Below, piece by piece: positions 67 to 15,953 of a stretch of 24,922 nt of DNA. Source of the DNA: a virus; IMG/VR virus record IMGVR_UViG_3300033233_000157, positions 1 to 24,922 of that record; one strand, given 5' to 3'. The notes beneath the pieces were generated by a model. That model was given only the letters and a program-made list of their open reading frames with translations, was not told the DNA's origin and made no database searches. The first letter of the stretch is position 1. Every line of letters starts with the position of its first letter. Both the position numbers and the translations under genes were made by a program.

Positions 67-438
67 CTAATACTGAAATGAGAACGTGGTTTTTGTTTCT
101 GCTCTTAGTACCCTTGTTTTGACGAAGAAGTATCTCTCTTCTCCGCGCCGCAGTTTTGTTGTTGGATTTCTCGCACCGTCAAATATCTGCTCTGGTTTAT
201 CGCCTAAGAATCCGTAACTCACTTCTTCTAATCCTTGCGTGTTCCAATTTATTTTGGGATAGATTGGCGATATATCGATACTCCCGGTATTTCTCACATA
301 GCCTTCATAGGCATAGATATATTCAACCTCGTTAAAGCTGACCATCCAGGGTGTTATGGTATATTCAATTTTGGGTTGAATCGGCTCATTTGTTTGACCA
401 CACCCTGCGAGTAACAGGCACAACAAAATCCTTTTCAT
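67..438 (-). CDS. Predicted lipoprotein, 123 aa
   Basis: The N-terminus MKRILLCLLLAGCGQTNEP is a short lipoprotein signal peptide with a textbook LLAGC lipobox, so the mature protein should be lipidated at Cys13 or so and membrane anchored. I chose the ATG at 436-438 over a TTG 36 bases upstream because it gives a correct signal peptide and has a GGGA-type site before it. The mature part contains a GYVRNTGS segment followed by beta-rich sequence and an LRRGEERYFFV stretch, a layout like FxLYD-type beta-sandwich domains (a loose resemblance). The gene overlaps the 3' end of the preceding lipoprotein gene by 53 bp. Function unknown. Phage lipoproteins after tail genes are sometimes superinfection-exclusion factors that block a receptor (for example T5 Llp); that is only a possibility here. 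Confidence 0.7.
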   Translation of the reverse strand: MKRILLCLLLAGCGQTNEPIQPKIEYTITPWMVSFNEVEYIYAYEGYVRNTGSIDISPIYPKINWNTQGLEEVSYGFLGDKPEQIFDGARNPTTKLRRGEERYFFVKTRVLRAETKTTFSFQY

Positions 439-910
439 ATAGCATCCCGCTTCGTTTTGTCGCAATACCGCCAATCACTATTCTAAAGTCATAGTACACC
501 GGCCCCCCGCCCCAATAGAATCCATCGCTCTTTGTATAGTGGTACATTCTCTGGCTTACCCTTAGGGTATCCGTGACATAAGAAAGGCCGTCTAAATAAT
601 TAGCCCCGAAGAATCCGATGCGCCCATTGGCAATCATATTTTCGGCGTGGATGGCGTACCCGGTTGAGTCAAAGTAAAATCTCAATTCCGTGCTCACCGG
701 ACACAGGGGATAACCATACCGATTCTCTATTGTGCCAATGGCTATTACATAGTCGCTCTGCTTGCCCGGTGTACCGTATGGATCGACAATCAACTTTGGG
801 GTGAGCGTGATTGAGGGTTCTGGAATAATGTAGGGCGATACCTGAATCTCCGTAACGGTATCCCGCGCACATCCCAATAGAACTAAAAATATGAGGCTAC
901 TTAGTTTCAT
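386..910 (-). CDS. Predicted lipoprotein, 174 aa
   Basis: The protein starts MKLSSLIFLVLLGCARD: a basic residue, a hydrophobic core and an LLGC lipobox, which is slightly non-canonical but acceptable. The mature part is beta-rich, with an IAIGTIENRYGYPL segment that parallels GYVRNTGS in the neighbouring lipoprotein, and both go on to a YGFLGD / IGFFGAN-like motif and a long beta region. The two may be diverged tandem paralogs. There is no clear Shine-Dalgarno before the ATG at 908-910. An 8-codon frame starting at an AGGATG upstream ends in TAATG on this start, so re-initiation is conceivable. Function unknown. Confidence 0.7.
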   Translation of the reverse strand: MKLSSLIFLVLLGCARDTVTEIQVSPYIIPEPSITLTPKLIVDPYGTPGKQSDYVIAIGTIENRYGYPLCPVSTELRFYFDSTGYAIHAENMIANGRIGFFGANYLDGLSYVTDTLRVSQRMYHYTKSDGFYWGGGPVYYDFRIVIGGIATKRSGMLYEKDFVVPVTRRVWSNK

Positions 911-959
911 TAGATAACTATCAAAGTAGTGTTCATCCTGTTTGTGGTTGTTAAATTTA

Positions 960-2963
960 TCAGGGATTTGCTATCGTTGTGACTGTTCCAGAGCTTCCCC
1001 TATATTTCAAGGCTCCAGCTTCGACATAAAGTATTCCGCCGCCAGATGGATTAGAAGTTGGCGCTGTTGCATTTTTGATTGCTATGACATTCGTACCGCC
1101 CCCGAAGCCAACACTACTGCTAAATAATCCGATATTTCTTGTAGAGTTCAGACTTAAATACATATCCCCGCTTCCAGTACCGCCATCAACAAACAGGAAA
1201 TTATAGTTCGGCGCGGCGGCGTATGCTGCAAAATCACCGTCTGAACTTTCGGCTGTCCCATTCACCGAAAACGTATATTTTGATGTTCCGTTTTGCCGAA
1301 ACTTTAGAATCGCCTGCGTACTGGTAAAGGCGTTGATAATAACATTGGCAGCACCAGACGAACCCTTGAACTCCGCTACATCGCCAGAAGAAAGCGTGAT
1401 GGAGAGTTTTCCGCTCCCTGCGATTGTTGTTGCGCCGCTTAATGCCCCGCCCATCGCAAGGGTGGTGATATTGCTTAATGCGCCACCGCTTAATCTGAGC
1501 GTCCCGCCAGTATAGAAATCATTCGCAACATTGACATTGCCTGAAGCAAACCATCCGGCCCAGTTTTGGGTAGATGAACCAGTCGCCGACCCATATATTC
1601 CATAGGCTATTCCTCCAGAACCAGATGTCGCGTTACCTTGAACACCATACGCAGAAACGATACCAGACGTTGAAGAAACACCCTGGACGGCGGGTGTGCC
1701 GCCGAGAGATGTATTTATTAAAACAAAACCAGAATCAGAATAAATCGCTCCCCTGAAAAACATCCCTGGGTATCCAGCAAAAACGCTTGAACCTAACCAT
1801 ACTTTGCCGACACCATCTCTGTAAAATGTTAAAGTATCACTACTGATTTCAACGCGTTTGCTTCCCGTCGAACTCTTGATGGTCGCGCTCGTTGCCGTTA
1901 ATGCCCCCGCAGCAGTGACCATGAATGGCGCGCTATTGTAGGTGCTGCCACCAATCTGGAGACTGCCATCCCCGGAATTGTTCAGCCAGAGTTTATTTGA
2001 TGAGCCGACAATAATCTGGCCTGCCGTCAGACTTCCCATGTCCGCGCTGATTGCGGAGAGCTGTGCTACGCTGATTTTTGCAGCCGTGATTGAGTTCGCT
2101 TGAAGGCTGTTGGTTGAGATGGAGTTCGCCAAGATGTTGACATCATTCACGCCCAGAACACCGACCGAAGGAATGTAGCCGGCTATCCCACCTGAGACCG
2201 CCGAAGGCCATGCGACACACATCAGTATCGAACCATCGGCTACAACATCAGCATAGTTCGTCGAGGTCTGTAAGACGGTTGATGAGGTTGCCAGAGCGAG
2301 GTAAATGTAGGAGCCGGTCGTCATGTAGAGCGCGCCCGCGTTTATTGAAAAGGTGACGTAGGCGAGTTTGATTGTTCCAGCAGTCCACTTCACGGTGTCC
2401 TTGTGTGGAGAGGAAAAAACGATATCCGTGCCGAACGCTTGCGCGCTCTCAACCAGTTTTGAAGCAATGACTGAACCGTTGACGAGAAACGCACCACTAA
2501 GACTTGAACCTGTTGCCGTCACAAATGCGCCAGTGAATGTCCCGCTTGCGCCTAATGTGACCCTCGTGGTATCGCGAGTCCTGAATACAATGGAGTCCCG
2601 ATATACTCGCATTGCATCGTAGAGCGCACCTGATCCGTTTGGGAGTCTTGCGCCGATACGGAATAGCCCAGCACCCTCGGAGCGTCCGAATGCGAGCGAT
2701 GAATCCCCGCCACTGGAAACTGCTGCCAGTTCTGAATAGATTGAACTTGAATGTGTCCCATCATCCCGCGTGAGGTAGCGCGACTTTGGCGCAGTCGAGT
2801 AGTTTAGAATATCGACGTACGCCTTGTCCGTCCCGTATTTAAGCCATAGTGCCGCATGTGACTGAGAAGCGTACACGCTTGAATCAACCTGAATGTACGT
2901 GCGGAATCGGTACTGAGCCGCGAGGAGAACGGGTAGCAATATGAGAAGGAGAAGTTTTTTCAT
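960..2963 (-). CDS. Tail fibre / tail tip protein with N-terminal signal peptide, 667 aa
   Basis: The C-terminal half is typical phage fibre sequence: low-complexity Gly/Ser/Thr/Ala repeats, '[20 protein letters not shown]'-like steps and the widespread ending [20 protein letters not shown]. The middle (about residues 280-345) has the register found in siphovirus tip proteins ([20 protein letters not shown], then a [10 protein letters not shown] step). Uniquely odd is the start: [17 protein letters not shown] is a clean Sec signal peptide with Gln at +1. The ATG overlaps the upstream stop (ATGA, 2960-2963). The gene ends in tandem TGA TAA stops. By position, last in the tail block, it should be a receptor-binding or adhesion fibre. 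Why such a protein has an export signal is not explained by known assembly routes. Confidence 0.75.
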
Positions 2964-3679
2964 GGTATCGCCTGAAGGACTATCAAAATATCGCTGTAAA
3001 AGAACCCATCACTTGAGGGGTTCCCCCCGTCTGAGACTGCCGCGGTGAATGTGATATTCCCGCCAGAAACAGACGGGGTAGCAACGAGATTCACCTTGCC
3101 ATCCTGGTATGGCGCTCCGTTCACGCTCACATGAAAAACATGAGTCGCGCTGTTGAATGTTGGATAGGCCGCGCCGGTTTCATCTGTCGCGAGCTTCCCT
3201 GAATTCGTCGTGAATGTTTCCGGGCTTGCCTGTGTTCCCACTATTTTTACTCTATTTTTGATGTACACAAGTTCATCCACTACTGCGAGTATAGGCCAGC
3301 GTGTATAGACATAGGAATCAATAAGTTTAAGAACGAATCGTTTGCGAAGCCTGTTCGCCTCAAGCCATTCATTAGCCCAGTGCGTCGGGTCTTCCAGAAC
3401 GACGTTCGCAAAATCTCCGGCCGTGGTGATCTGTCTGTTTTCATGTGTGAGAAAACCGTGAATGTGTAGTTTGTCATCTGAGTCCTGGACTACTCCTAAG
3501 TCAATCGTCGGCAGTCTGTGGAAGCCCAGGATTTCCTCTTCCAATGTGCCATTCAAGTATTGATGTTGGACACCGACGATCTCGGTTTCATCGGGGTCAT
3601 CGAGTCCCCGGATTGAGAGAGCCGCGTAGCTCCGCGACTGCCAGCCCGCGTTATAATATGTGAGAACGATTGCCTCCAC
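2960..3679 (-). CDS. Tail protein, paralog of the upstream gene, 239 aa
   Basis: I do not recognise a family. The N-terminal about 130 residues align with the product of the upstream gene (3681-4451): both begin with a VL.YY motif, then share GL(N/D)DPD..EI.GVQH.Y.NG..(D/E)EE..GF.R.PTI and a later NEW motif (SNEWMDGVKLVKSYELTL versus [18 protein letters not shown]). This protein then adds about 80 residues of beta-rich sequence with [14 protein letters not shown], possibly an Ig-like or jelly-roll module. The start is GTG at 3677-3679; alignment with the paralog, residue by residue from position 1, supports it even though the ribosome binding site is weak. Probably a baseplate, tail tip or fibre-adaptor protein from its place between tail tube candidate and fibre. 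Confidence 0.65.
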
Positions 3680-3680
3680 A

Positions 3681-4451
3681 TTATGCGCCCGTCGGGAATG
3701 ATTGCCGGATGGCGTTCTCCCTTAAGGTGAGTTCGTAGGACTTCACCAACTTCACCCCGTCCATCCATTCGTTAGAGAATTTGAAGTCCTTGAGAGCAAC
3801 CGTAAGCCCCGTCTCAGCCCAGGAGCCATCGGTAAAATCAATCTCCCTATCAGGGTCCAACCGCCAGTAGAGCACGGCCACCCTCTCGGCGTGGGTAGTG
3901 GTGACGAATCTGATAGTCGGGTCGCGCCAGAAGCCAGCTATCTCCTCATCTATCCCGCCGTTAATATAGTTGTGCTGAACGCCGAAGATTTCCCCCCCAT
4001 CCGGGTCGTTCAAGCCCATGATGGAGCGGAGTTGAGTCGTCAAGATGAGCTGACTCATTATTGTCTTCACCGAGGCATCGTCAATCGAGCCGTCAAAATC
4101 CGTTGTCGGGATGAACTTTAGATTTCCTGTTCCCGTTGCCCTGATGGTTTGAGTTGATGTACTATTTGTCGATACAGCCGAACCGCTGACCCCACCAACT
4201 TGGGGGGTGACTGTGCCGGCGGTTCGGTTCTTTACCGTGAATACAACCTGATAGCCTTCCCCGGCAACCGCAGTGACATTCTGTTCCAATGCAGCAGTAT
4301 TGCCCGCCGTGTGATCGGCCTCAAGATTTCCCGCATCATGAGCCCAGCCCGTCCCGAATGTCCACGAAGCCGAGGTAGCAAACGCCCCATTGATGACCTT
4401 TTCCACCAAAGCCACTGCAGGATCGTAATATCTGAGCACGAGACTCGCCAT
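3681..4451 (-). CDS. Tail protein with inserted carbohydrate-binding-like module, 256 aa
   Basis: The first 11 residues (MASLVLRYYDP) and everything from about residue 130 on match the downstream paralog (2960-3679). Between them sits about 115 extra residues (roughly 15-130) with the look of a CBM4/9-like jelly roll: NGAFATSASWTFGTGW, then AGNTAALEQNVTAVAGEGY and beta strands ending in DFDGSIDDASVKTI. The shared part continues with GLNDPDGGEIFGVQHNYING. This implies that a glycan-binding-like domain was inserted into one copy of a duplicated tail protein. The gene starts one base after the stop of the upstream gene. A role in surface binding is inferred from the inserted module; no catalytic motif is visible. 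Confidence 0.65.
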   Translation of the reverse strand: MASLVLRYYDPAVALVEKVINGAFATSASWTFGTGWAHDAGNLEADHTAGNTAALEQNVTAVAGEGYQVVFTVKNRTAGTVTPQVGGVSGSAVSTNSTSTQTIRATGTGNLKFIPTTDFDGSIDDASVKTIMSQLILTTQLRSIMGLNDPDGGEIFGVQHNYINGGIDEEIAGFWRDPTIRFVTTTHAERVAVLYWRLDPDREIDFTDGSWAETGLTVALKDFKFSNEWMDGVKLVKSYELTLRENAIRQSFPTGA

Positions 4452-4452
4452 G

Positions 4453-5415
4453 TCAAGAAACTATGCTGTCAAAAGTCGTGTTCAACACGCTGCCCGTGTG
4501 TTTGAAGTGAACCACGCGGGTCTTGCTGAAATCTCCCTCGGCCTTGTAGTTGGTCGAGATACCGACTTGGTTCACAAATGTAAAGACCACACCTGAACGC
4601 ATGGTCACAACAGCGTCGATCTCGGAGTTGGCGTTGCTGTCCAATACCAGTAAATTGGCAGCATCGGTTTCCATCGAATCGTATTCGATGTTAAATTCAA
4701 CCTGGGTCGGGCATGGCCTTCCCAAGTCATCTGAGTCACCCACAAACGCACAGGTAACTTTTGAATTCTTGATCTTGCCAAATGTCGCCGGTATGCCGCC
4801 TGTGAATGCAAGCGTCAACGCTGAGACACCGCAGGATTTGATATTGGCACTCTTGGGCAAGCCGCCGTCAGTCGCGGCTGTGTAGGTACCGATAGCGTGG
4901 AACGTACCACCGGAGCCAGTGGCTTCAAAGTCTGTATCAACGATGGATGCTTTGACAACCGCATCTTTCGATGAATTAAGGAACGTGCCCTCGATCTCAA
5001 CTTGAATGAAGGCATCGTTCTTCGGGTCACCCGAATAGTCAACCGTCGCTTTGGCGTTAGCCATCGCAGCCGTGACAAGTACCCACCCCTCAGTCGCAGC
5101 CGCTCCGCCAGAGGGTACAGCCGCAGCATCGGACATCTTGAAGAGAAAGGCATTCGTGCCGCCGCAGAGCGTATCGAGCAACTCAAGCTCTGTAATGCTC
5201 GTTTGCATCATCTTGAATGATGCCTTGAACGATGAGGCGTTGTTGATCTTATTGCGTCCAATGGAATCGTTGGACTCGTAGTCCATGATTTCAAGTGACG
5301 CGTCCTTGATCGCCCCGAGTGTTTGGTACTTCCCGCCCGAAGGCTGGACATAGGCTGCGACAAAACTTGCTGGCCGGATGTTAGAATTTGCTGGTGTCGT
5401 TATGGTGTATGGCAT
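4453..5415 (-). CDS. Probable major tail tube protein, 320 aa
   Basis: The start is set at the ATG at 5413-5415 (MPYTITTP) because AAGGAG lies 6 bases upstream. A TTG 54 bases further up would run into a hairpin and has no such site. The sequence is beta-rich and soluble. The N-terminal part, 'GAIKDASLEIMDYESNDSIG' followed by SFKASFKMMQTSITELELLD, has the layout of tail tube proteins (beta strand, short loop, 'gr.k' segment, then a helix with 'L..L.GG'). No other gene in the window fits a tail tube, and the usual place just upstream of the chaperone is empty. Against the call: the gene lies downstream of the tape measure, an atypical order. A tail tip structural protein is the alternative. 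Confidence 0.45.
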   Translation of the reverse strand: MPYTITTPANSNIRPASFVAAYVQPSGGKYQTLGAIKDASLEIMDYESNDSIGRNKINNASSFKASFKMMQTSITELELLDTLCGGTNAFLFKMSDAAAVPSGGAAATEGWVLVTAAMANAKATVDYSGDPKNDAFIQVEIEGTFLNSSKDAVVKASIVDTDFEATGSGGTFHAIGTYTAATDGGLPKSANIKSCGVSALTLAFTGGIPATFGKIKNSKVTCAFVGDSDDLGRPCPTQVEFNIEYDSMETDAANLLVLDSNANSEIDAVVTMRSGVVFTFVNQVGISTNYKAEGDFSKTRVVHFKHTGSVLNTTFDSIVS

Positions 5416-5437
5416 TGTGATCTCCTTGAAAAGTAAA

Positions 5438-5476: not shown

Positions 5477-5514
5477 CGGCTTTCCGAATAGCGTGGTATG
5501 TTTGGTTGTTTAGT

Positions 5515-6999
5515 CTATTCTCTTATCCACTCTATTTCGCACTCCGATGTTTCCACCAGCTTGCGAACCTTGTTTGCGTAATAAGTTTTGGCCGAGACGC
5601 CGTCGTTGATCGAAGTTCTTCTGAGGATGCTCAAGCGAGTGTGATCGTTGGCGACGCCGTCATCCGCCTTGAGTTGTCCGTACTTTCTCACTATCAGACC
5701 GTAATCCGCCGTGAACCTTTTGTATATGTACCCGCCGATTGCCTCCTGCATCTTCGCATTGGTGGCGGTCGTGATGACGTATGCCTGGGCCGCATAATCA
5801 TAGTACTTAATACCGTCGAGAGCGACCGGTGCATGTCCCGCTGTACCGTCCCAGACATAGAGACTTCTATTGTTTGCGGCTTGAGCAGCCGTCGCATTGA
5901 TACGAAATACAGCCGGGGAATCAACATCGAAAGAAACATAATTCGGTACTTCTGTTATCGTCGGAGCATCGGAATACCTTTTCGACATCCAACAGAATTT
6001 TGTGTTATCGACAAGTTCAACCGATCTGACGGCATCACCTGAAAGATCAAACGCTTTAGAAATTGTTGATTCCTTCTCCCGCGAGCTAAAGTCGAGCGTC
6101 GCCGAATATGCCCTGCCTCTCTGGATGAGTTGTATAAGATGACGTCCTGCTCCAGCATCATAATCCATCCGCATCACAAGCCCGAAGTTGCGTAATAGGT
6201 CGCCGATGAGGGCCTGCAATTTCGGATAGAATAATTCGAGAGCTTGCGAATTTGTTGGCGGGTCGTAAGGAGGATAATTAGCATCATTATGATTCCAGTA
6301 AGTAATCGGCCTGTCACCAGCACTACCAACTCGCAATAGATCATAGAAAGCAGTTGGGACGTAAATCTGATCGAACCTGAACTCAGCCGCACCATTGAGA
6401 AATATCATGTCTGGGCCAGAGTTCCAGACGAATGAAACATCATTCAAATCGTAAGATGGATTCAAACCGGAACCTGACAACATCGCTGCAAATAATCCGG
6501 CTGGTCTTATCAACCAACTCGGCTCTTTGTCAACCTGATATGCAGTATTGACTTGGCCGTAATTCATGAACTCCGTTATCCAGTCCTTTGTCAATGTATC
6601 AAACATCGTAAGTGTAACGGTGGCAAGATCGAGTGAAACGGTGCGAATTCTTGAGGAGCTAATATAATGCTCCTCCCAGCGTATCGTCTCGGCCTGCGGC
6701 TTACCAAAGAAAAAGAACGTATTGCCGCCGCCCTGATCGAGATAGAACCGGATTCGGCAATCCCCATTTAAAATCTTGTACCAAAACCCCTCTGAGTATG
6801 CCGTATAATCATCTGTCAATGTGACGGAAAGTTTCGCTGCTTGAGAGATACCCATCGATATATCCGCAACCTCTTCGAGCATGCCGATACCGGTCACGCT
6901 TTGCCCCGTCGGGATTATTAGATCGGCAAATTCTGATAGCAACGTGATCGAGAAAGTACCAACAACACCAGTAACCGATTGAAGCGAGTATGATGTCAA
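5515..6999 (-). CDS. Tail tip / baseplate protein (Dit- or Tal-like by position), 494 aa
   Basis: This lies directly downstream of the tape measure gene and overlaps it by TTGA (6996-6999), so it starts with TTG, read MTSYSLQSVTG; a weak GGGTG lies 5-6 bases ahead. Genes directly after the tape measure usually encode distal tail and tail-associated tip proteins. The protein is beta-rich throughout with many aromatic residues, has no signal peptide or membrane segment, and shows an early 'ISQAAKLSVTLTDDY' element and a central 'YPKLQALIGDLLRNFGL' helix. I do not recognise a specific family, and no peptidoglycan hydrolase motif is evident. Confidence 0.55.
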   Translation of the reverse strand: MTSYSLQSVTGVVGTFSITLLSEFADLIIPTGQSVTGIGMLEEVADISMGISQAAKLSVTLTDDYTAYSEGFWYKILNGDCRIRFYLDQGGGNTFFFFGKPQAETIRWEEHYISSSRIRTVSLDLATVTLTMFDTLTKDWITEFMNYGQVNTAYQVDKEPSWLIRPAGLFAAMLSGSGLNPSYDLNDVSFVWNSGPDMIFLNGAAEFRFDQIYVPTAFYDLLRVGSAGDRPITYWNHNDANYPPYDPPTNSQALELFYPKLQALIGDLLRNFGLVMRMDYDAGAGRHLIQLIQRGRAYSATLDFSSREKESTISKAFDLSGDAVRSVELVDNTKFCWMSKRYSDAPTITEVPNYVSFDVDSPAVFRINATAAQAANNRSLYVWDGTAGHAPVALDGIKYYDYAAQAYVITTATNAKMQEAIGGYIYKRFTADYGLIVRKYGQLKADDGVANDHTRLSILRRTSINDGVSAKTYYANKVRKLVETSECEIEWIRE

Positions 7000-8708
7000 G
7001 TGCGCACCCGTTTGTTTATCCTATCGCCCGATTCTATAAATGTTGCAAACTTCCCAGCCGTGATCTCATTGCGAACGATAAAAACTGGCTGCATTGTTTG
7101 CTGTCGGTTCATTCCCATCTGACTTGCCTGTCCGGCGGGGGAGACATACTCTGGCCCGCGCTCTGCGAATGTGTACGACTTACCCGATTTCATCCCCATA
7201 CCTAAGACTGGCTCACCAATCATCCCGCCAGAGGCGAAATTAAACCCGCTCAGACTCGCAAAGGCAGACGCGAAAGTCCCGACCGGGCCAAACAGCGACA
7301 TGATACCCGATACAATCGCGGATGCTGCCAGTTTTTCCGCTATCTGTGCAATACCAGCAAGAACGCCCTGAACGAATCCCTGGAACAGACTTGTCGCTTC
7401 ACCAAGGGCATCCACTAATCCTTTTTGAATCATCTGGCCAAGTTGAGCGAAGCCAGATTGAATTGGGGATAGTAGATTTTTCACATTCTCAAGTTTCAAA
7501 GGCAGCAATGCCGCCGCCTTTTCCAAATTATTTATTTGAAGCAAGAGACTTGTGATGCTGGTCGGTTGTCCAGTCAAAAGACCCGTGAGGGCAATTCTGT
7601 TTCCCCTTGCTGCAAAATCTATTTCGATCTGCTGGCGTTTTGAAAGACTACGCGCCTCTATCTCCTCAATTTTTGTGGAGAGATCGAGTATCGCTATCTT
7701 CTCTTTTCTGTCCGCCTCCCGATTCACGGTAGCCCGCTTCTCTCTGAATAACTGCTCTGCCTTTAGTTTTTGATCCTTGATAACAGAATCTTGCCCGATA
7801 AACTCGCGGTCTATTCTCTCTTTCTCTGCTTGTTCTTCGGCGGCGAGATTAGCTAATGCCTTCATTCTCTCGCTCAGAATCGCATTGTTCTTTTCTTTTT
7901 CAAGGTTCAGGCGAAAGGTTATATCGCTCTTGTTGAGTGTCTCGGCGATTTTATGTTCCTGCTCCATGAGCGCGATATTGAGCGAAGTGAGTTTATCCTT
8001 CAACGCGTTCTCAGCTTCCGCCTTAGAGCCAAAACCGATCCTCGCCAGCAAATTGGCCACGCGGTCTGCCGAACTATTCCCACCCCTGCCCTCAAGAATC
8101 CCAAGCTGCATCGTCGCGGTTTCAACCTGGCCACGAATGGCGGAAATGTTGAGCGTGGATAGACCAGCTTTCCAGATTTCAAAAGTCTCTTTTGTTTTGC
8201 GAACCTTCTCCTCAAGGCCCGAAAAGAGATTGACGAGGTTTGCAATCTCGATTGCCACGCCAGCTATAATCCCAGCGGGGCCAGCGATCTTCGCTCCGGT
8301 CTCGCCGAAGAGTTTCAATGCAAAGGTAACGCTTAACCCAACGCCGAGGGCATCGGTGAGTCCGCTGGTGAATTTCTTGATGTTCTCAAGACTCTTCCCA
8401 GTAGCCCCGGTAACGCCTGCCATCGCATTGGCTATGCCGTCAAAGGCATGGACAGCCTCAAGAAGTGCAAACCTCCATAGCCTTGCCTCTTGACGCGACT
8501 CTTTGACAACACCGGAAACTCCGCGAAATTGCTGTGTCAGATCGCGGAGGCGCGTATCAACCTGTTTCATGGCATTGCCAAGAGCCGCCCATTCCGGGGT
8601 ATCGGGTTTTGCCTCCTGAAAACGCTGTCTGAGAGCCTTCAAATCCTCGCGTAATACCGCAATGGATTTGCCGTCTACATCTATCCGTATGAGTACGTTG
8701 TCTGCCAT
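6996..8708 (-). CDS. Tail tape measure protein, 570 aa
   Basis: The protein sets tail length and occupies the tail lumen before DNA ejection. Evidence: location just after the frameshifted chaperone pair; a mostly helical, Ala/Leu/Lys/Glu-rich sequence; a long coiled coil around residues 240-370 (for example EEQAEKERIDREF); hydrophobic stretches near residues 125-165 and 440-490 (LFGPVGTFASAFASLSG); and the typical C-terminal tape measure signature FASGGMIGEPVLG followed by FAERGPEYVSPAG. At 570 residues it is short for the class. With the usual rule of about 0.15 nm per residue it would specify a tail of roughly 85 nm. ATG at 8706-8708, with AAAGG four bases upstream. No lysozyme or peptidase domain is seen. 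Confidence 0.9.
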   Translation of the reverse strand: MADNVLIRIDVDGKSIAVLREDLKALRQRFQEAKPDTPEWAALGNAMKQVDTRLRDLTQQFRGVSGVVKESRQEARLWRFALLEAVHAFDGIANAMAGVTGATGKSLENIKKFTSGLTDALGVGLSVTFALKLFGETGAKIAGPAGIIAGVAIEIANLVNLFSGLEEKVRKTKETFEIWKAGLSTLNISAIRGQVETATMQLGILEGRGGNSSADRVANLLARIGFGSKAEAENALKDKLTSLNIALMEQEHKIAETLNKSDITFRLNLEKEKNNAILSERMKALANLAAEEQAEKERIDREFIGQDSVIKDQKLKAEQLFREKRATVNREADRKEKIAILDLSTKIEEIEARSLSKRQQIEIDFAARGNRIALTGLLTGQPTSITSLLLQINNLEKAAALLPLKLENVKNLLSPIQSGFAQLGQMIQKGLVDALGEATSLFQGFVQGVLAGIAQIAEKLAASAIVSGIMSLFGPVGTFASAFASLSGFNFASGGMIGEPVLGMGMKSGKSYTFAERGPEYVSPAGQASQMGMNRQQTMQPVFIVRNEITAGKFATFIESGDRINKRVRT

Positions 8709-8743
8709 TTGCCTTTTATTGTCGTTTCAGTTATATTCAGTCT

Positions 8744-8857
8744 ATGATACTGGCCTACATCATTCTCTTTGTCATTCTCATCTCTGGACTCGGTTTGATT
8801 TTTTTACCGCCCAATGAAAAGGTTTACGGCGCTAAAAAATCAGAACGGGAAGATTAA
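8744..8857 (+). CDS. Possible plus-strand small membrane protein, 37 aa
   Basis: This ORF occupies the only stretch of the tail region not coded on the minus strand (8709-8853). It starts with ATG at 8744 and encodes a single hydrophobic helix, MILAYIILFVILISGLGL, followed by a polar charged tail ending KKSERED. Its stop overlaps the end of the long chaperone form, convergently, by 4 bp. There is no good ribosome binding site ahead of the ATG. It is the only plus-strand candidate in the window and could be chance. If real, a small one-helix protein could act as a holin-like or regulatory peptide. Confidence 0.25.
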   Translation: MILAYIILFVILISGLGLIFLPPNEKVYGAKKSERED

Positions 8858-9365
8858 CGCCCATCTTTCGGCATCCAAGCCGAGTACATCTTCAAGAGCT
8901 GCCAACAAACCGCGTCCTCAATCGTTATGTTGTTCTCGATCCATTCTCGCTTCAATATATCGGCCTCACAGAGCGAGAAAAGCAATCCTTCGAGCGTAAA
9001 TTCTTCCGGTAGCGACGGCTTCTTGCTGTCTTCTCTAAACTGAGAGAAGAATTCTAACCATTGACTTGTTTTACTGGTGTCCCCGTCGCTAACTCGAAAA
9101 AACGCTTGATGATCTCCGTCATGTCGCTGATGGTGATATTATCAAGCTCCAATCCTTCCGACTTTTCAACGGCCTCTTTGCAAAAGTTAGACCAATGCGT
9201 TTCGAGTTCTGCATACGTCGCGTCGTCATCAAAGAGCGTCTCAAGCCTATCGGCCTTGAATAGTTCCACCAGCTTGCTTGACTTTGCCTTTCTGACTGTG
9301 GCAAAGGTCATTTTCTTAAAACGAAAAATCTTCTCGCCTATCCTGATTTCGTTTTCATCTGTCAT
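8854..9365 (-). CDS. Tail assembly chaperone, long form by programmed -1 frameshift (about 170 aa)
   Basis: Downstream of the short chaperone's stop codon the -1 frame stays open to a TAA at 8854-8856, without any ATG, GTG or well-placed TTG start, and reads as real protein: EEFTLEGLLFSLCEADILK, then REWIENNITIEDAVCW and a WMPKDGR end. The short frame carries T TTT TTC (9102-9096) in the right register. Slippage there joins 90 residues of the short form to 80 residues of the -1 frame. This is the same arrangement as lambda gpG/gpGT, where both forms chaperone the tape measure protein. It also explains the otherwise empty 8854-9053 region just upstream of the tape measure gene. Direct protein evidence is lacking. 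Confidence 0.85.
9054..9365 (-). CDS. Tail assembly chaperone, short form (gpG-like), 103 aa
   Basis: A small, acidic-helical protein (MTDENEIRIGEKIFRFKKMT at the start), encoded two genes upstream of the tape measure, where tail assembly chaperones sit in siphoviruses. Without frameshifting, translation ends at the TAG at 9054-9056. AGGAG lies upstream at a long spacing (11 bases). In known systems this form binds the tape measure protein and recruits tail tube subunits; here that is inferred from position and from the frameshift. I do not see a named family by sequence alone. Confidence 0.75.
   Translation of the reverse strand: MTDENEIRIGEKIFRFKKMTFATVRKAKSSKLVELFKADRLETLFDDDATYAELETHWSNFCKEAVEKSEGLELDNITISDMTEIIKRFFELATGTPVKQVNG
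9096..9102 (-). promoter_or_regulatory. Ribosomal -1 slippery heptamer T TTT TTC
   Basis: In the short chaperone frame the codons CGT TTT TTC (9104-9096) contain T TTT TTC, an X XXY YYZ slippery heptamer in the required register. A GGAG element lies about 11 bases upstream of the heptamer, similar in spacing to Shine-Dalgarno-like stimulators such as that of dnaX. No strong downstream stem-loop is obvious. Confidence 0.8.
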
Positions 9366-9379
9366 GTTAGAGCTTTCTC

Positions 9380-9859
9380 CTATTTAGTAATTGCACCCGA
9401 TAGAATCTCTTTGGCTTTCACCACATCCTCATCCTGGATGCGAAAATACCGTCGTGCCGGTATCAGTATCGGATGGGGCTTTGTGCCGTGTGTGAAAATG
9501 AGTGACGATCCGATCTTAAATACCTGAAACTTCTTTGAGCCGGGATGGTTGATCGTCCCGCCAAGTTGATGAATGGCGTTAAAGCGTTCCCCGCTGGCTT
9601 CCAGGACTGCGCTAAAATCTCCCACTGAGGCTATGTGCTCAGAGCGGCCAATATGTCCAGAGCGGCCACCTAAAGGCAACGTGCCTGTTTTGTTCGGCCT
9701 GAAAGCTGTGGGCCTGCCTCCGGCATCTAAGGACACGAGGTTCGACTCAAGAAGCATCTCTGCGATTCTTTGCATCTGCGGTTTCATTGACTCACCCAAC
9801 TGAGAGATGAGCCTGATGCGTGTCTCAAGCGGTGTCATTTCAACACTCATCCCGATCAT
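9380..9859 (-). CDS. Phage virion morphogenesis protein, gpS-like, 159 aa
   Basis: The sequence has the hallmarks of the phage virion morphogenesis (gpS, tail completion) family: FRPNKTGTL then SEHIASVG, the core 'FNAIHQLGGTI', and a C-terminal 'IPARRYF' motif. Members help join or complete the tail at the neck. The start is the ATG at 9857-9859, which overlaps the upstream stop (ATGA) and has GGAGG six bases before it; the ATG three codons later is less well placed. It is basic and about the usual length. Confidence 0.8.
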   Translation of the reverse strand: MIGMSVEMTPLETRIRLISQLGESMKPQMQRIAEMLLESNLVSLDAGGRPTAFRPNKTGTLPLGGRSGHIGRSEHIASVGDFSAVLEASGERFNAIHQLGGTINHPGSKKFQVFKIGSSLIFTHGTKPHPILIPARRYFRIQDEDVVKAKEILSGAITK

Positions 9860-10332
9860 GCGAACCCTCCGTCCATATTCCTCACTGTAAGTGTCCCCCA
9901 GACGGTGAACTCCCCCGTGTTGTCTCCAGAGGGGAAGATGGGGGTGAACTTCAAGGGCGGTTCGTTATCCACAAACCATGAGGGGTCTACGTTGATATGC
10001 TCGGTATTGAGTGTGGCGATCAATATCAAAATGTCATGCAAGAGCGAATCCTGTGCAGCCACTAAGTTCGATGTCGAGCCGGTGGTTGTCTTTGCGCTGA
10101 TCTCACAGGTGATGAAAAACGGTATTCGGACATTGTAAATACTCCACGCCGAATCTCCACAAATCACTTCCCCCACCCCGAAGGAAAGCACCAGTGATGG
10201 ATAGGCTCCTATTGCCTCCGGGAACTCCTGGTAAACCTTCTTAACCGTATTGCGATAGGTGCCGCCCTCTTGGATTGTTTCGAGAGCGGTCATCCACTGT
10301 GCGCGGACGGTTTCCAGTTTCGAGACGCTCAA
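9856..10332 (-). CDS. Probable tail terminator / neck protein, 158 aa
   Basis: This lies between the connector and the gpS-like protein, the usual slot for a tail terminator or minor tail protein. The start is TTG at 10330-10332: GGAGG is placed five bases upstream and the codon overlaps the previous stop (TTGA). The fold looks alpha/beta, with an N-terminal helix (SKLETVRAQWMTALETIQ) then strands. A 'QDSLLHDILILIATL' helix and a 'TGEFTVWGTLTVR' strand near the C-terminus are consistent with tail terminator proteins. The family assignment rests mainly on position. Confidence 0.55.
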   Translation of the reverse strand: MSVSKLETVRAQWMTALETIQEGGTYRNTVKKVYQEFPEAIGAYPSLVLSFGVGEVICGDSAWSIYNVRIPFFITCEISAKTTTGSTSNLVAAQDSLLHDILILIATLNTEHINVDPSWFVDNEPPLKFTPIFPSGDNTGEFTVWGTLTVRNMDGGFA

Positions 10333-11459
10333 TACTTCCTCCGGTATGGGTCTAAGAACTTCTTTTGCCGCTCGGTGAAATCTTTGTAGGTTGTGCTCTT
10401 GTTTCCAATACCCTCAGATTTCGATGTCGAAGTGATCCCAAAACGTCCACCACCTTCTTTGCTTGAATTACGGAAAGTCTCAACTACCTTTTCCAAGCAC
10501 ACAGTCTTAATAGCCACCGGGACCGTAGACCATCCGGCTCTGTAAGTGTTCAGGGCTATGTTCCTACGTCCAGATGGGAACGAGCCATCTGGTAGCTCGA
10601 TGTTGTAGCTGTTCTGCTCGGATTGATAGGTCACACCTGGGTTGTTGAAAAGTATGTCATCAACATCTGTGGCAAGGTCCGTCCATGTATCATCGTTTAG
10701 GTATTGAAGGGCGGCAAGCTGTTCTGCATCCGTCGCACTCGAAGCACCCAGGCCAACTATCGGATAGAAGTTGGGTCTGAGTTTGGTGCGCCCGTTACCG
10801 TCGTGGATTTCACCCGTGATGGTCTGGACGATGACCACGTTGTCAATCTCTTGCTCGATCTGTGTGGAAACATCCGTGATCCACCTCTGCAAAAACACAT
10901 CATGGGTTGTGTCTGATTCTTCGATAGCAAGATAATCTTTCACTTCACCCAGGGAGATGATGTCATTGTCGCCAACTACATAAGTCGGTAACATTGAGAC
11001 ATTGAAAGAGACCTCAATGAAGGCTATTTGAAAATCAGCCTCGTAGGTATCTGTAGCATCAGATGCGTCTCGTTCGACTTTAACGGCCAGCACATCGCCA
11101 GAATCGAATGTAAGGCCATTATAGGCCGCGGCCGGGATGGTCAGTGTTGTTATCTTGCCGTCGGTTGAGCCTCCGGCGTAGACGGTTAGTGAGTCAACGT
11201 CTGAGATTTGTGTTGATGGCGGTGAGTCTGTGTCGGTCTGGGAGATTCTGAAACGTAGATAAGCATTCCCCGCGCTCTCTCGTTTGAAGTAGAGTTTAAT
11301 CGAGGCAATACTGGTGTAGTAAGTCGGTATCTCAATCCCTGCGAAGGCATAGTCTGAATACTGAGCATTTGGCATCGGGTACAGAGGTAGCGGCGCGGTG
11401 GTTGAGTCTATCCCCGCGACCGGCTGTACGAAGCTCTTTATTTTCTGAGTCGTTGCCAT
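10329..11459 (-). CDS. Head-tail connector fused to an N-terminal beta-sandwich domain, 376 aa
   Basis: Residues about 1-155 form a beta-rich domain (SIKLYFKRESAGNAYLRFRI, later VKVERDASDATDTYEADF) of a type seen as stand-alone structural proteins in other phages. Residues about 165-376 look like a gp6/gp15-type head-tail connector: 'ISLGEVKDYLAIEESDTTHD' then 'FLQRWITDVSTQIEQEIDN' helices, an AL.TYRAGW segment and a basic C-terminus (FLDPYRRKY). The ORF is continuous, so the two parts are one protein. The ATG directly follows the upstream TAG. A ring of connector subunits below the portal, with decoration domains outward, is the inferred picture. Confidence 0.65.
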   Translation of the reverse strand: MATTQKIKSFVQPVAGIDSTTAPLPLYPMPNAQYSDYAFAGIEIPTYYTSIASIKLYFKRESAGNAYLRFRISQTDTDSPPSTQISDVDSLTVYAGGSTDGKITTLTIPAAAYNGLTFDSGDVLAVKVERDASDATDTYEADFQIAFIEVSFNVSMLPTYVVGDNDIISLGEVKDYLAIEESDTTHDVFLQRWITDVSTQIEQEIDNVVIVQTITGEIHDGNGRTKLRPNFYPIVGLGASSATDAEQLAALQYLNDDTWTDLATDVDDILFNNPGVTYQSEQNSYNIELPDGSFPSGRRNIALNTYRAGWSTVPVAIKTVCLEKVVETFRNSSKEGGGRFGITSTSKSEGIGNKSTTYKDFTERQKKFLDPYRRKY

Positions 11460-11744
11460 CTACTTTGCTTTCGCTTTTCTGAAACTTGTGTCCACCAGTA
11501 CCGCTTGCAATCCGTTGGCCGCACCGCTTAAGAATGTTTGCCGTGCGCGGGCATTGGCGATTGCCTTCTCTTGCTCCGTGATGAACTTCACCCAATAATC
11601 AAACTCTTCTTTGATGTTCGCCAGTTGCTTCTGAAGACTGTCGATTGACACCGTGACGAATTTCTCTGCCGGCTTTTCAACTGGTTTTTGTGCCAATGCG
11701 TTCGCGCTGGCAACCAGTAAAGCAAATATGACCCATTTCTTCAT
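11460..11744 (-). CDS. Small exported coiled-coil protein, 94 aa
   Basis: MKKWVIFALLVASANALA|QKP is a clear Sec signal peptide (basic start, hydrophobic core, ALA cleavage motif, Gln at +1). The mature 76 residues are a helical amphipathic region (LQKQLANIKEEFDYWVKFI, then EQEKAIANARARQ) and a basic tail. Small phage proteins with a helix and a 'GA..gLqavL' end are common near neck genes, but not with signal peptides. A spanin-like role can be imagined but the protein sits in the structural block, far from any lysis gene. Confidence 0.65.
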   Translation of the reverse strand: MKKWVIFALLVASANALAQKPVEKPAEKFVTVSIDSLQKQLANIKEEFDYWVKFITEQEKAIANARARQTFLSGAANGLQAVLVDTSFRKAKAK

Positions 11745-11810
11745 CTACTTCTCCATTGTGTGAGTGAATTTTGGATAATCTATCGCGCTTGACTCAATCG
11801 CCAAGTCCAT
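11745..11810 (-). CDS. Mini-ORF, 21 aa, in frame with the upstream fibre gene
   Basis: A 21-codon ORF starts MDLAIESS and ends DYPKFTHTMEK; its TAG abuts the ATG of the next gene. It lies in the same frame as the fibre gene stop (TGA at 11826-11828), with only five sense codons (KQEFL) between that TGA and its ATG, so TGA readthrough would extend the fibre by 26 residues. No good ribosome binding site is seen. It may be a small gene, a readthrough tail or chance. Confidence 0.25.
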   Translation of the reverse strand: MDLAIESSAIDYPKFTHTMEK

Positions 11811-11825
11811 TAAGAATTCTTGTTT

Positions 11826-14759
11826 TCATCGGCGCACCACAAAGTAAGAAACCGTTTTTCCATCGGTGGCAAAAATTGTAAATTTTCCGGTCTGCACGTT
11901 GCCGACTGAAATCGGGATTACCGTAAGTCCAAGCGCCGTGTTGCTGGTGTACCACGGTACGATTTGGGACGTAGCCGTGATACCTGTGATTGAAACCTGT
12001 ATACTGTCACCGGTCGATGCTGTGGCTGTACCTGAGTTCAGACCACCAAAGGAAGAAAGCCCGCCAGCGACGAGATACATATTAGTCGCTGGGTTCGTAG
12101 CATTGTCCGTTACCAGCCAGGGCTTTGCATCGGATGAATAGCCATTCAGCAGCGCGAGCACGCCTGAATCGTTTGCCGCGATGGTAAAGGTCTGTTGAAC
12201 AACAGCGCCGGATTGAATTGCACGAATACTGTTCCCTTTTGCGGCTGTGCCGAGAGTAATCGAACCGCCATACACAAGATCAGCAATGTCGTGGTCGCCG
12301 TTGAAGGTGAGAGTTCCGGTCAAATTTGGGAATAAACCTTGAAAATAAGAACTTGTTGCAGCGTAAGTTTGAGCGGTTGAATTAGAAACATTACTTCTTA
12401 ACTGAACATTTGTCGATACCGTGGTTCCAACGGGTATAGTTGTTGCACCCGTATTTCCAGTATATGCAACAATCAACTGATTATTATTTGTACCCATCTG
12501 TATATTTCCAGTAGAGGTAAAGCCAACAAATGAAGAACCGTTCCCATTCTGAACGATATTTCCGCTCGCTACATAGCCAAAATGATATGATCCTGCGCCG
12601 CTAAGAGTGAGATTAGAGGTGTTGACATAACCTACTGAACCCGAACCCGTGACACTATTCGTTGTGCCTACCGATAAACCCAAAAATAAGGAGGCGACAC
12701 CACTATTAGTTACAAGACCACCAATTTTTCCAATTGCAAAAGTTCCTACATCAGAGTTGGTGACAGCATTATTAGTATATCCAATGAAACCTGCCCCAAC
12801 AACACTATTCGTTATTGTGCTGGCGACCCTATTGTTCCCGATAGATACTTTTCCAGTGTCATCTCCTGCTGGGACGGTTGTATAATCATTCAGAACGGCG
12901 AAACCACCGCCGAGGATTACCAAAGTCGTATCAAACGTGAATGTAGATTTCGATGTCAGTGCCGTCGTGCTTCGTGCGATAGCAATCTGAGTTGCCACGA
13001 TGTCGCCACCAAGACCACTGCCGGATGCAACCGTTGTCCATGTTGGGGGTGAGCCGGTAGTTGCCGTTAATAATTGTCCAGTCGTGCCGTTTACCAATAA
13101 AGATGGAACCCCGGTTGCACTTGTGATAAGTACGCCATTATTAGCTGTGGCGAGAGCTGCCATCACGTTGGCACTTGAGGCATACAAGAGCGTATTGACA
13201 GCGTTGGTTGCGGGATAGGTGCTTGTTGACCATGCCGGGGTAGTAGAGGAACCGGATTGAAGCATTTGACCCGCAGTTGCAGTTCCGGCCAAAATCGCAC
13301 CAGCAGAAGCGGTAGAGTAAAAGATACCCCCATTGGAAGCGGTAAGATTTGCAGCCGTGCCGCCTGAATTTAAGGGAAGAAGATTCCCCGTACCGAGTGC
13401 GGCTTGTTTAGCATTGAACGCGACCCAATCGGAGAACTTCAAAAACCCGCTTACTGCGGACGTGGCATATTTTGTCGTATCTGATAAAATGGTCGGAGCA
13501 CTTGCCGTACCACCCGTTGTGATAAAAGTATTTCCAGCCGCTACTGATGTTACCTTGTTGTTGAACGTCGTCCAGTCCTGAGATTTTAAGAAACCAGAAA
13601 CGGAGGTTGTTGCGTACTTCGTCGTATCGGAAAGAATCGTTGGCGCGGTTGCTGTGCCACCGGTTGTGATAAAGGTATTGCCCGCCGTCACGCTTGCAAC
13701 CTTCGATGCCGCCAGAACCGAATCCTGCTGGTGTTGATAAATAGAAGTCAGCGATGTTTTGCGCCCATTCGTTGTGTCAACTGAAAGTGTCCATGTCCTG
13801 TCGGCGGACAAATCTTGTCCAGCCGCAGAGGATGAAAGCGGCGTGTTCCCAGCGATGGTGATGGCGCGAGTCTTTGGCGTGTACGTCGTAACCGCGTACG
13901 ATGAGTCGAGTCGTCGTTGTGCCTGCGTTACTAATCCTTGTGTTAAGTGCGTTGTGTCTGCTACCAGTACTGCGGCTCCACCAATGACCTGCCGAGTTGC
14001 CGAGAATGATAGCGGCGACGATGTTGTGAGATTGCCCTTTGTCAGCGTCGGTTCTTTTAGAGCGAGTAAGCTATCCGTGCGGAACCGCGTGTAAAGAATG
14101 GACGAGGTATCAGAATAGGCCAGCTTCAGAGCAAGCAAACTCGTCGCCTCACCACGATTGAGCTTCGCAGTCAGTGAATCCTGTAATGCCGTGATGTCCG
14201 ATATTCCCGCGTCCGCCCCTGACGTCACCAAACCTTTCACGTCATAGGTAATTTTTGTTTTCGTCGCGCCGGTGATGGCCGCGTTCTTTGTCACCTTCTG
14301 AGCGTTCTGATAGAGTGTCGTGTAGCCCGTCGTCGCATCCGTGCTATCATTTGCCAGTTTGAACTTTGTGGTATCAGATAGCAATGCACCCTGTTTCAAT
14401 TCAAGTGATGTCCGCCCCGTTGCAGCCACAAGCCCCGTTGCCCCGCCGTCCCATTTCAGGCGGTCGGTGTAGGCTGTGTTCCAATTGGCTGAGTCGGCAG
14501 CGAAGAGTCCTGAACGGACATAGGCGAGATTCCAATTTGTTGAATCGGCTACCAGTAAACTCGAGCGAGTGTAGGCGGTATTCCAATTCTGAATCGAGGA
14601 AAGCAATAAAAGCGTGCCGTCCCTAAATGTGATGAAGGGTACACTAATCCCTTGAGTGGCCTTCACCGGACGAATGGTATCGCCATTGGCGGTCGTGGTT
14701 GTCCATTGCTGGGCAAGGGCTGTGGAGGAAAACAGTATGACTATGAATAGTCGTCGCAT
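11826..14759 (-). CDS. Large fibre-like protein with signal peptide, 977 aa
   Basis: MRRLFIVILFSSTALA|QQW is a Sec signal peptide with Gln at +1. Then come three NWN.AY..S..LL.ADS repeats (about residues 57-110), a long Thr/Ser/Ala-rich fibre body, a 49-residue tandem duplication (encoded at 13410-13703), typical phage fibre phrases such as GQMLQSGSSTTPAWSTSTYP, and from about residue 640 to 770 a series of short Gly/Ser/Asn-rich repeats (VTNSGVASLFLG-like) resembling YadA-head-type beta rolls. The C-terminal about 200 residues may be a receptor-binding or beta-sandwich tip. It sits between capsid and connector genes rather than in the tail block, which could mean a head fibre. The start has GGAG five bases ahead, within the preceding mini-ORF. 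Confidence 0.7.
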   Translation of the reverse strand: MRRLFIVILFSSTALAQQWTTTTANGDTIRPVKATQGISVPFITFRDGTLLLLSSIQNWNTAYTRSSLLVADSTNWNLAYVRSGLFAADSANWNTAYTDRLKWDGGATGLVAATGRTSLELKQGALLSDTTKFKLANDSTDATTGYTTLYQNAQKVTKNAAITGATKTKITYDVKGLVTSGADAGISDITALQDSLTAKLNRGEATSLLALKLAYSDTSSILYTRFRTDSLLALKEPTLTKGNLTTSSPLSFSATRQVIGGAAVLVADTTHLTQGLVTQAQRRLDSSYAVTTYTPKTRAITIAGNTPLSSSAAGQDLSADRTWTLSVDTTNGRKTSLTSIYQHQQDSVLAASKVASVTAGNTFITTGGTATAPTILSDTTKYATTSVSGFLKSQDWTTFNNKVTSVAAGNTFITTGGTASAPTILSDTTKYATSAVSGFLKFSDWVAFNAKQAALGTGNLLPLNSGGTAANLTASNGGIFYSTASAGAILAGTATAGQMLQSGSSTTPAWSTSTYPATNAVNTLLYASSANVMAALATANNGVLITSATGVPSLLVNGTTGQLLTATTGSPPTWTTVASGSGLGGDIVATQIAIARSTTALTSKSTFTFDTTLVILGGGFAVLNDYTTVPAGDDTGKVSIGNNRVASTITNSVVGAGFIGYTNNAVTNSDVGTFAIGKIGGLVTNSGVASLFLGLSVGTTNSVTGSGSVGYVNTSNLTLSGAGSYHFGYVASGNIVQNGNGSSFVGFTSTGNIQMGTNNNQLIVAYTGNTGATTIPVGTTVSTNVQLRSNVSNSTAQTYAATSSYFQGLFPNLTGTLTFNGDHDIADLVYGGSITLGTAAKGNSIRAIQSGAVVQQTFTIAANDSGVLALLNGYSSDAKPWLVTDNATNPATNMYLVAGGLSSFGGLNSGTATASTGDSIQVSITGITATSQIVPWYTSNTALGLTVIPISVGNVQTGKFTIFATDGKTVSYFVVRR
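13410..13703 (-). repeat. Tandem duplication of 49 residues in the fibre-like gene
   Basis: Two adjacent 147-bp copies each encode KV.SV.AGNTFITTGGTA followed by APTILSDTTKYAT, SVSGFLK and DW..FN. Protein identity is high, DNA third positions differ, so the duplication is not recent. It is coding and in frame. Confidence 0.85.
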
Positions 14760-14818
14760 TGCATCTCCAGGGCGAGTTCAAAACAAAGATCAGAGAACCA
14801 AAGGATAAGTCGCTTCAT
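14741..14818 (-). CDS. Mini-ORF, 25 aa, coupling two signal-peptide genes
   Basis: The ORF begins MKRLILWFSDL, ends MQCDDYS, and overlaps the upstream stop as ATGA (14815-14818), the same coupling used by many genes here. It ends inside the fibre gene start, and the fibre's GGAG ribosome binding site lies within it. It could be a real hydrophobic micro-protein, a leader that couples translation, or chance. Confidence 0.35.
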   Translation of the reverse strand: MKRLILWFSDLCFELALEMQCDDYS

Positions 14819-15228
14819 TTGGTCAACACGCCCTTTTTACCAGAGATTGTGAAGTAGATAGTATTCGGCAGCGCAGGTGACATAAACCTGACTTTTCCCG
14901 TACCGCCAAGAATAGCAAAATCAACCGCCGTTGAGCTTGTGATAATCGTCGCGGCCGTTGCGCCAGTCGCAAGATTGACAACCCCTCGCTGAACAAATCT
15001 TGCTGCATCATCTGATTGTACCCAAACGGTGAGCGTATCAGCGTTTGTTGAATATGTTGTAATCTGGTAGAAGTCAAACCCCAGATCACTCCTCAGTGAA
15101 ACATCGACCGTATCCCTTGTTGATGCAAGTGAATCGGCATAAAAGGCTACAGTCGGGAAAGCCGATTTGTCCTGCGCCAAAAGTATCGTTGAACAAATAA
15201 GCGTAAGTATTGCCATCATTGTTTTCAT
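14815..15228 (-). CDS. Secreted-type small structural-block protein, 137 aa
   Basis: MKTMMAILTLICSTILLA|QDK is a Sec signal peptide with Gln at +1. The mature part is beta-rich, without Cys, and has a strand pattern DTLTVWVQSDDAARFVQRG then 'VRFMSPALPNTIYFTISG' that looks like a small jelly roll or decoration fold. It overlaps the upstream gene's stop (ATGA). I do not recognise a family. Its similarity in layout to the 15462-15953 protein (signal peptide, 'SL...DS.' linker, beta domain) suggests both may be related decoration-like proteins. Confidence 0.65.
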   Translation of the reverse strand: MKTMMAILTLICSTILLAQDKSAFPTVAFYADSLASTRDTVDVSLRSDLGFDFYQITTYSTNADTLTVWVQSDDAARFVQRGVVNLATGATAATIITSSTAVDFAILGGTGKVRFMSPALPNTIYFTISGKKGVLTK

Positions 15229-15410
15229 GTCTTTTTACCTCTTCCTCTCTTTTTCACCTGTGTTTTAATTCCTGCTTCTCTGTACCCGAGCATTGAAAGC
15301 CTTTGAATCACCGCAGGATTGGCAGTTTCAAACGTCTTATCCTCGGTCAGCTCGAAGTTGGCGATGATCTTACCCTTGTTCTTTACGATTCCAGCACCCT
15401 TGAATTTCAA
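15225..15410 (-). CDS. Small basic phage protein, 61 aa
   Basis: The likely start is the TTG at 15408-15410, read MKFKGAGIV, because GGAGGT lies just 3-4 bases upstream; the TTG four codons earlier overlaps that ribosome binding site and has none itself. The chain KGKIIANFELTEDKTFETAN then VIQRLSMLGYREAG resembles the small 'residue-counting' YqbF-like N-terminal domains found beside phage capsid genes, ending in a basic tail (KKRGRGKKT). Role unknown. A strong hairpin precedes the gene. Confidence 0.65.
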   Translation of the reverse strand: MKFKGAGIVKNKGKIIANFELTEDKTFETANPAVIQRLSMLGYREAGIKTQVKKRGRGKKT

Positions 15411-15424
15411 TAGACCTCCCAAAT

Positions 15425-15449
15425 GGGGGCAAGGAAAGCCCTCGCCCCC
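15425..15449 (-). other. Strong RNA hairpin between two head-region genes
   Basis: On the minus strand GGGGGCGAGG (15449-15440) pairs with CCTTGCCCCC (15434-15425), including one G-U pair that exists only in the minus-strand RNA, around a 5-base loop. No U-run follows, so it is not a standard intrinsic terminator. It lies just before the GGAGG of the next gene. Confidence 0.75.
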
Positions 15450-15461
15450 GAAGAGAATAAA

Positions 15462-15953
15462 CTACCTCACCCTTACATCTTCCCGATTGTACGGTACACG
15501 GATGATCTTTGTCGTCAAGGTCGCGCTTGGATTAGCCGAGTAAGGGCTATCGAAGGCTGACCCATAGACTTTAATCTGTGTCCCGTAAGAAGCCAGAACA
15601 ACCCCTGGGAGTGTGAAGGTCTTAAATATCCCCACCGTGCCGGTTGAGACAAGTGAGTCGAAGACAACCCATGCGTTAAAGTTCGTCCCGTCCTTTGTGG
15701 TACGGTAGCCGATCAGAATACGCATTGAGTCATTCGTCGCCGTCTCCAGTGACAAATAGCAAGCCGCGAGCCCACGCGTGACAAATGTTTGGGTCGTGTC
15801 TGCAAATGTTGTGGAGAGCGTTCGCGCGGTCATGGACGTACCGGCCGAAAGGGTCTTTGGTACAAATGTGTCCCCATAGACGGCAATCGGTGCCTGTGCA
15901 AACGCCAGCGAAGCCACCAGTAAGAGGGCAACTACAAACATGAATCGGTTCAT
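15462..15953 (-). CDS. Secreted-type protein next to the capsid gene, 163 aa
   Basis: The start MNRFMFVVALLLVASLAFA|Q is a strong Sec signal peptide with AFA cleavage motif and Gln at +1. AGGGGG five bases upstream of the ATG implies high expression. The mature domain is beta-rich ('DTTQTFVTRGLAACYLSLET' then 'IGYRTTKDGTNFNAWVVFDS'), like the small sandwich domains of sugar-binding or decoration proteins. It begins 9 bases after the major capsid protein's stop, the usual position of a capsid decoration protein. A capsid-associated protein that carries an export signal is highly unusual. Family not recognised. Confidence 0.7.
   Translation of the reverse strand: MNRFMFVVALLLVASLAFAQAPIAVYGDTFVPKTLSAGTSMTARTLSTTFADTTQTFVTRGLAACYLSLETATNDSMRILIGYRTTKDGTNFNAWVVFDSLVSTGTVGIFKTFTLPGVVLASYGTQIKVYGSAFDSPYSANPSATLTTKIIRVPYNREDVRVR

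Follow-up and report, generated by a model that had tools for sequence, protein, structure and literature searches.

Signal peptides in a phage morphogenesis block

The window analysed here is a 24,922-base fragment from IMG/VR (positions 1 to 24,922 of record IMGVR_UViG_3300033233_000157), with a single gene block on the minus strand. Judged by its capsid and terminase sequences, it comes from an SPP1-like siphophage, of which it represents the morphogenesis block. Our subject is a set of structural-block proteins with predicted export signals. The original prediction had singled out seven open reading frames (ORFs), five for Sec signal peptides and two for lipoboxes, and all seven are present at their positions (arrows mark predicted cuts):

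15462–15953, minus strand: sp163, small and predicted beta-rich, directly after the capsid gene; MNRFMFVVALLLVASLAFA↓QAPI
14815–15228, minus strand: sp137, a small predicted beta-sandwich protein; MKTMMAILTLICSTILLA↓QDKS
11826–14759, minus strand: fibre1, 977 residues; MRRLFIVILFSSTALA↓QQWT
11460–11744, minus strand: sp94, 94 residues, directly before the adaptor gene; MKKWVIFALLVASANALA↓QKPV
960–2963, minus strand: fibre2, 667 residues, at the distal end of the tail block; LAA↓QYRF
386–910, minus strand: lipoprotein, lipobox MKLSSLIFLVLLG↓CARDT (LLG↓CARDT)
67–438, minus strand: lipoprotein, lipobox MKRILLCLLLAG↓CGQTN (LAG↓CGQTN); the signal starts from an ATG at 438, inside an ORF whose first codon is the TTG at 474

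Signals were called with our own rule-based predictor, which looks for a basic n-region, an uncharged h-region, and a c-region of the AXA or lipobox type. A Sec signal for signal peptidase I (SPI) followed by Gln at position +1 was assigned to exactly the five named proteins and to no other gene of the block. ATG starts were found at the signals. As foreseen, the predicted cleavage products begin with Gln in 5/5 cases, the pattern known as the "Bacteroidetes Q-rule". The signals do lie inside the structural block and include both large fibres and the capsid neighbour sp163. The lipoboxes were recovered as well, that of 386–910 as a predictor call and that of 67–438 by eye. Both lipoproteins, whose genes lie beyond the last fibre gene, are less remarkable than the five SPI proteins; the CARDT that follows the cut in 386–910 faintly resembles a Bacteroidota surface-lipoprotein export signal.

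Because all calls came from a rule-based predictor, which also flagged, probably falsely, a Vibrio phage scaffold protein among the controls, we considered whether the signals were an artefact of misassigned start codons or of N-termini that are hydrophobic by chance. The numbers leave this next to no probability. When the window proteins were shuffled, 16 of 13,000 sequences scored as signal plus Gln, corresponding to 0.04 expected genes against the five observed (Poisson P ~7e-10). None of the 66 non-gene ORFs of the window scored, and neither did any of the 692 genes in 80 control SPP1-like loci, which have related terminases and are for the most part prophages of Firmicutes (Fisher P 4e-8). 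The ATG starts and the conservation in relatives described below likewise argue against an artefact. Export of the five proteins is well supported.

The signals are embedded among the following genes:

22675–23943, minus strand: terminase large subunit (TerL), no signal
20886–22457, minus strand: portal protein, no signal; used for tracing the clade
17015–17701, minus strand: scaffold
15963–16994, minus strand: major capsid protein, Gp13-like (phrog_247), the anchor of the block, no signal
10329–11459, minus strand: adaptor-like head-tail connector, no signal
9380–9859, minus strand: neck-like gene
6996–8708, minus strand: tape measure

TerL, portal, scaffold and the Gp13-type capsid belong to related families and stand in SPP1-like order. 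The window shares with SPP1-like siphophages both the families and the succession of TerL, portal, scaffold, capsid, adaptor and tail genes, but differs from the control loci in its genes for signal plus Gln.

Related environmental phages and their fibres

The original prediction had proposed a search of related phages for the same set. Signal-bearing proteins of this kind are found again in five or more related environmental phages (L008, L293, L294/L370, L110/L372 and L299/L373), and they do so at corresponding places, with small beta-rich proteins in the interval between capsid and adaptor and large fibres ending the tail block. In L008, whose capsid is 66% identical, the gene order is an sp163 ortholog with a signal (46% identity), an sp137 homolog that also bears one, and the adaptor. 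L293 and L294 (portal 61%) encode sp137 homologs with signals. The continuation of L294, L370, adds two signal-bearing fibres, the first of which directly follows a homolog of the window gene 2960–3679 and hence occupies the position of fibre2. Mutually paralogous signal proteins lie before the scaffold and after the capsid in L110/L111 (capsid 53%), and L372, which belongs with L110, encodes a signal-bearing fibre of 745 residues followed by another signal gene. Two signal-bearing proteins, one small and one of 1100 residues, are encoded in L299/L373.

The sp137 family, with four members, has kept the signal and Gln19 although overall identity to the window protein is only 23–30%, and its position in the head block is constant across the four phages. 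A further small conserved gene accompanies sp163 and sp137 in L008, L293 and L294:

15225–15422, minus strand: small conserved gene without a signal, between sp163 and sp137

Neither sp163 nor sp137 matched anything among the cultured-phage records. Their AlphaFold2 models were weak, with a predicted local distance difference test (pLDDT) score of 56.6 for sp163 and 66.8 for sp137. Fold matches to carbohydrate-binding modules and to the cement protein of phage KHP40 had mostly low template-modelling (TM) scores and were not used as evidence.

The distribution of these genes also bears on the idea that they are host-derived accessory genes (morons), inserted by chance and with no role in the virion. 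Such an origin would suit the fact that sp137 and the adaptor of the window are separated by fibre1 and sp94, whereas in L008 nothing separates them. However, relatives of sp163 and sp137 are found in synteny in other phages, and phage fibres are what the two fibres match, which makes this explanation highly improbable.

The centre module of fibre1 is common to many phage fibres in IMG/VR. At the 47 loci inspected, the ORF homologous to fibre1 lacked a convincing signal in nearly all cases. The clearest exception, L046, lies outside the clade studied and encodes at 8759–11944 a fibre of 1061 residues that has a signal at its N-terminus (MRPRMKTLFAALAMIGVLLGACDFAQAQST) as well as a module like that of fibre1. 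Fibre2 matches the tail protein family phrog_1101, and its C-terminus is 53% identical over 62 residues to a signal-less fibre in L041; used as an IMG/VR query, fibre2 returned no relatives. Since the modules of fibre1 and fibre2 match largely signal-less phage fibres, fibre modules in the clade of the window are linked to an export signal. We do not claim that a signal was merely prefixed to the N-terminal domain of a signal-less fibre, because a profile built from the N-termini of signal-less fibres failed to pick up those of the mature signal fibres, and because a pairwise score that none of 1000 shuffles reached, between the L372 fibre and L096, was one of 12 comparisons.

Virion records of Cellulophaga phages

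Tailed-phage virions are taken to assemble in the cytoplasm, and signals on structural-block proteins had accordingly been called unexpected. For this phage group the premise is too strong, because virion records exist for signal-bearing proteins of cultured marine phages that infect Cellulophaga. The genes gp091–gp094 of phi10:1 encode consecutive signals (LSA↓QTTDV, SFG↓QNIRL, VSA↓QTVIK and LNA↓QTVEG), and each product is entered in GenBank as a "structural protein" on the basis of experimental tandem mass spectrometry (MS/MS). Similarly, gp101–gp104 of phi19:1 are four consecutive signal-bearing genes whose products are all GenBank-recorded virion proteins by MS/MS. The predictor called gp101 a lipoprotein, while its sequence reads INA↓QGVAP; gp104 has Lys rather than Gln at +1, so that Gln occupies this position in 7/8 proteins of the two phages. 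These records suggest that a phage particle can be built partly from exported proteins.

Signals are also found on related genes of Pachyviridae (phi19:3, phi46:3 and phi13:2), Duneviridae (Ingeline) and Assiduviridae (Nekkels), where a common N-terminal stretch, MKHTISIVLFFILSLGLNA↓QTVEGTVGSDGSL, is joined to differing C-terminal domains. The lyase proteins of Ingeline and Nekkels have been described as carrying "signaling peptides" (PMC8776804). In the Cellulophaga loci L202, L205–L209 and L212, the signal and the ~20 residues that follow it (MKHTISIVLFFILSLGLNAQTVEGTVGSDGSL) are common to proteins with unrelated C-terminal domains, across families, and thereby resemble a portable docking or export module. 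The pectate-lyase domain is present without a signal in phi17:2 and phi14:2.

Codon comparisons count in favour of export followed by joining of virions, in that the gp093-type signal shows 39 synonymous and 0 non-synonymous codon differences (15 pairs, not independent). The gp094-type signal is less strictly kept, with 57 synonymous and 41 non-synonymous differences (28 pairs, not independent). In a third explanation, the hydrophobic N-terminus stays uncleaved and gives the virion a segment that acts on membranes or anchors it there while it assembles or enters the cell. Virion presence would then be possible without prior export. Selection for hydrophobicity alone, however, does not account for the persistence of both the cleavage region and the Q-rule Gln in all five window proteins and in relatives. 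Since conservation extends over the entire signal, cleavage region included, retention of the N-terminus is the least likely of the meanings that the original prediction had offered, and we consider it quite unlikely. Virion proteomics of similar phages favours export followed by joining of virions over the display on the host surface that had also been proposed.

The window set works like the Cellulophaga cassettes, of which it is not shown to be a member, since no PHROG family is matched. Both comprise tail-end fibre-like genes with signals, mostly obeying the Q-rule and, in phi10:1 and phi19:1, recorded in virions by MS/MS. The Cellulophaga phages belong to other families, and the likeness is one of architecture rather than of demonstrated sequence homology. 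Unlike the window, they have no signal-bearing genes next to the capsid in the stretches read. Signal peptides exposing Gln are also known from Porphyromonas gingivalis phages (Nixviridae), where, by the published description, they occur on genes of unknown function and not on fibres or capsid neighbours (PMC10367356).

The main rival to virion incorporation is that the exported and cleaved proteins stay in the periplasm or outer membrane, where they would bind or obstruct other phages or loosen the polysaccharide of the cell surface, and only co-purify with virions. Signals do target the envelope, and two lipoproteins lie within the same block. An effect on the host outer membrane has been suggested for the Q-rule genes of Porphyromonas phages (PMC10367356), and lambda Lom shows that tail-block-encoded envelope proteins with a signal peptide exist (PMC12309495). 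Lom, however, is a membrane beta-barrel and not a fibre, whereas the window encodes five soluble-type proteins that include both big fibres. Moreover, the two large proteins consist of phage fibre modules, and no NCBIfam match to a type IX C-terminal sorting domain was found in fibre1, fibre2, sp163 or sp137. The place of sp137 in the head block is fixed in four phages, and eight such proteins of two cultured phages are MS/MS-recorded in virions. We regard retention in the envelope as a serious possibility, though a clearly less probable one than assembly into virions.

Proposed assembly route and host

Bacteroidota O-glycosylation acts on non-cytoplasmic proteins at the motif D[ST][AILVMT] (PMC12871550). 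In the window, this motif occurred 25 times in the exported proteins against 9.7 expected, and 22 times against 20.4 in the others (conditional P 0.002). The first relatives gave 18 versus 5.8 for exported proteins and 18 versus 14.1 for the others. In a second set the enrichment was weaker and due mostly to the small proteins, with counts of 41 versus 23.9 and 65 versus 55.7, respectively (P 0.035); the reversed motif was somewhat raised there too (33 versus 23.7). The motif enrichment in the exported proteins of the clade is supporting, not decisive, evidence.

We propose that the two fibres, together with the three small proteins encoded between capsid and adaptor, are synthesised as Sec precursors. 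Host signal peptidase I would cut them and expose the Gln, which would probably be cyclised to pyroglutamate, and the mature proteins would fold in the periplasm. Heads and tails would meanwhile assemble in the cytoplasm, and the exported proteins, acting as appendages or cement-type proteins, would join the virions when the envelope opens, at or after lysis. Taken as a whole, we hold this route to be somewhat more likely than not. Incorporation of the window proteins into virions is argued by analogy with the Cellulophaga phages, and we infer that joining takes place at or after lysis. In vitro, the tailspikes of P22 can attach to particles that are already complete, which makes late docking physically reasonable.

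Several observations weigh against this route. Some relatives, such as L295–L298, have no such structural signal genes in the stretch covered. The signal proteins of the window match none of the PHROG families of the Cellulophaga cassettes (phrog_17619, phrog_11548 and phrog_16053). The glycosylation motif, enriched in the exported proteins of the window, is depleted in Cellulophaga proteins both with a signal (16 versus 37.5) and without one (25 versus 41.4). The MS/MS record itself, which consists of GenBank notes and not of peptides, could reflect co-purified envelope or vesicle protein. Finally, the Bacteroidota phages 11b and B40-8 have no genes for signal plus Gln, which rules out a universal rule for phages of this phylum.

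More tentatively, and at somewhat less than even chances, the window may represent a class of tailed phages of Q-rule hosts with two-compartment particles, in which cytoplasmic heads and tails are met at lysis by periplasmic, possibly glycosylated, fibres and capsid-interval proteins. No publication that deals with exported virion proteins as a group of their own turned up in the open-licence literature, subscription papers lying outside the search. Passage through Sec would mean that some components of the virion fold and are processed, and perhaps glycosylated, in the periplasm, and that they have to dock late. For phages of a major bacterial phylum, adsorption, host range and superinfection would then have to be seen in a new light.

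The signals are best explained by a host that follows the Q-rule, that is, a member of the Bacteroidota in the broad sense. Gln occupies +1 in 71% of cases on average in Bacteroidetes and in 77% in Ignavibacterium album (PMC5837995). Some genes of the window and its relatives have a Shine-Dalgarno-like site in front of them, whereas such sites are rare in Cellulophaga phages, which makes a Flavobacteriia-type host less likely; the excess in the window is small, at 9/26 genes versus 6.0 in shuffles. An Ignavibacteria-like host would fit, though this is only a guess. A scan of species genomes with the capsid protein gave no match. Terminase relatives in these genomes were almost all from Firmicutes and served solely as controls.

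Single exported proteins appear also in head blocks of other diderm phages, since a hypothetical head-block gene of an Acinetobacter phage (L290, 9938–10366) has a likely signal peptide (MKTIAFVCLTLISITCLA). Four further minus-strand genes of the window are of note. The gene at 17808–18695 encodes a protein of 295 residues with about eight degenerate repeats of ~20 residues around "TESGEAIA"; a repeat family at the DNA level was looked for there and none was found. The tandem genes 19759–20178 and 20184–20564 each match the virion structural protein family phrog_3758, and an HNH-type endonuclease-like ORF at 24574–24921 is cut by the edge of the window.
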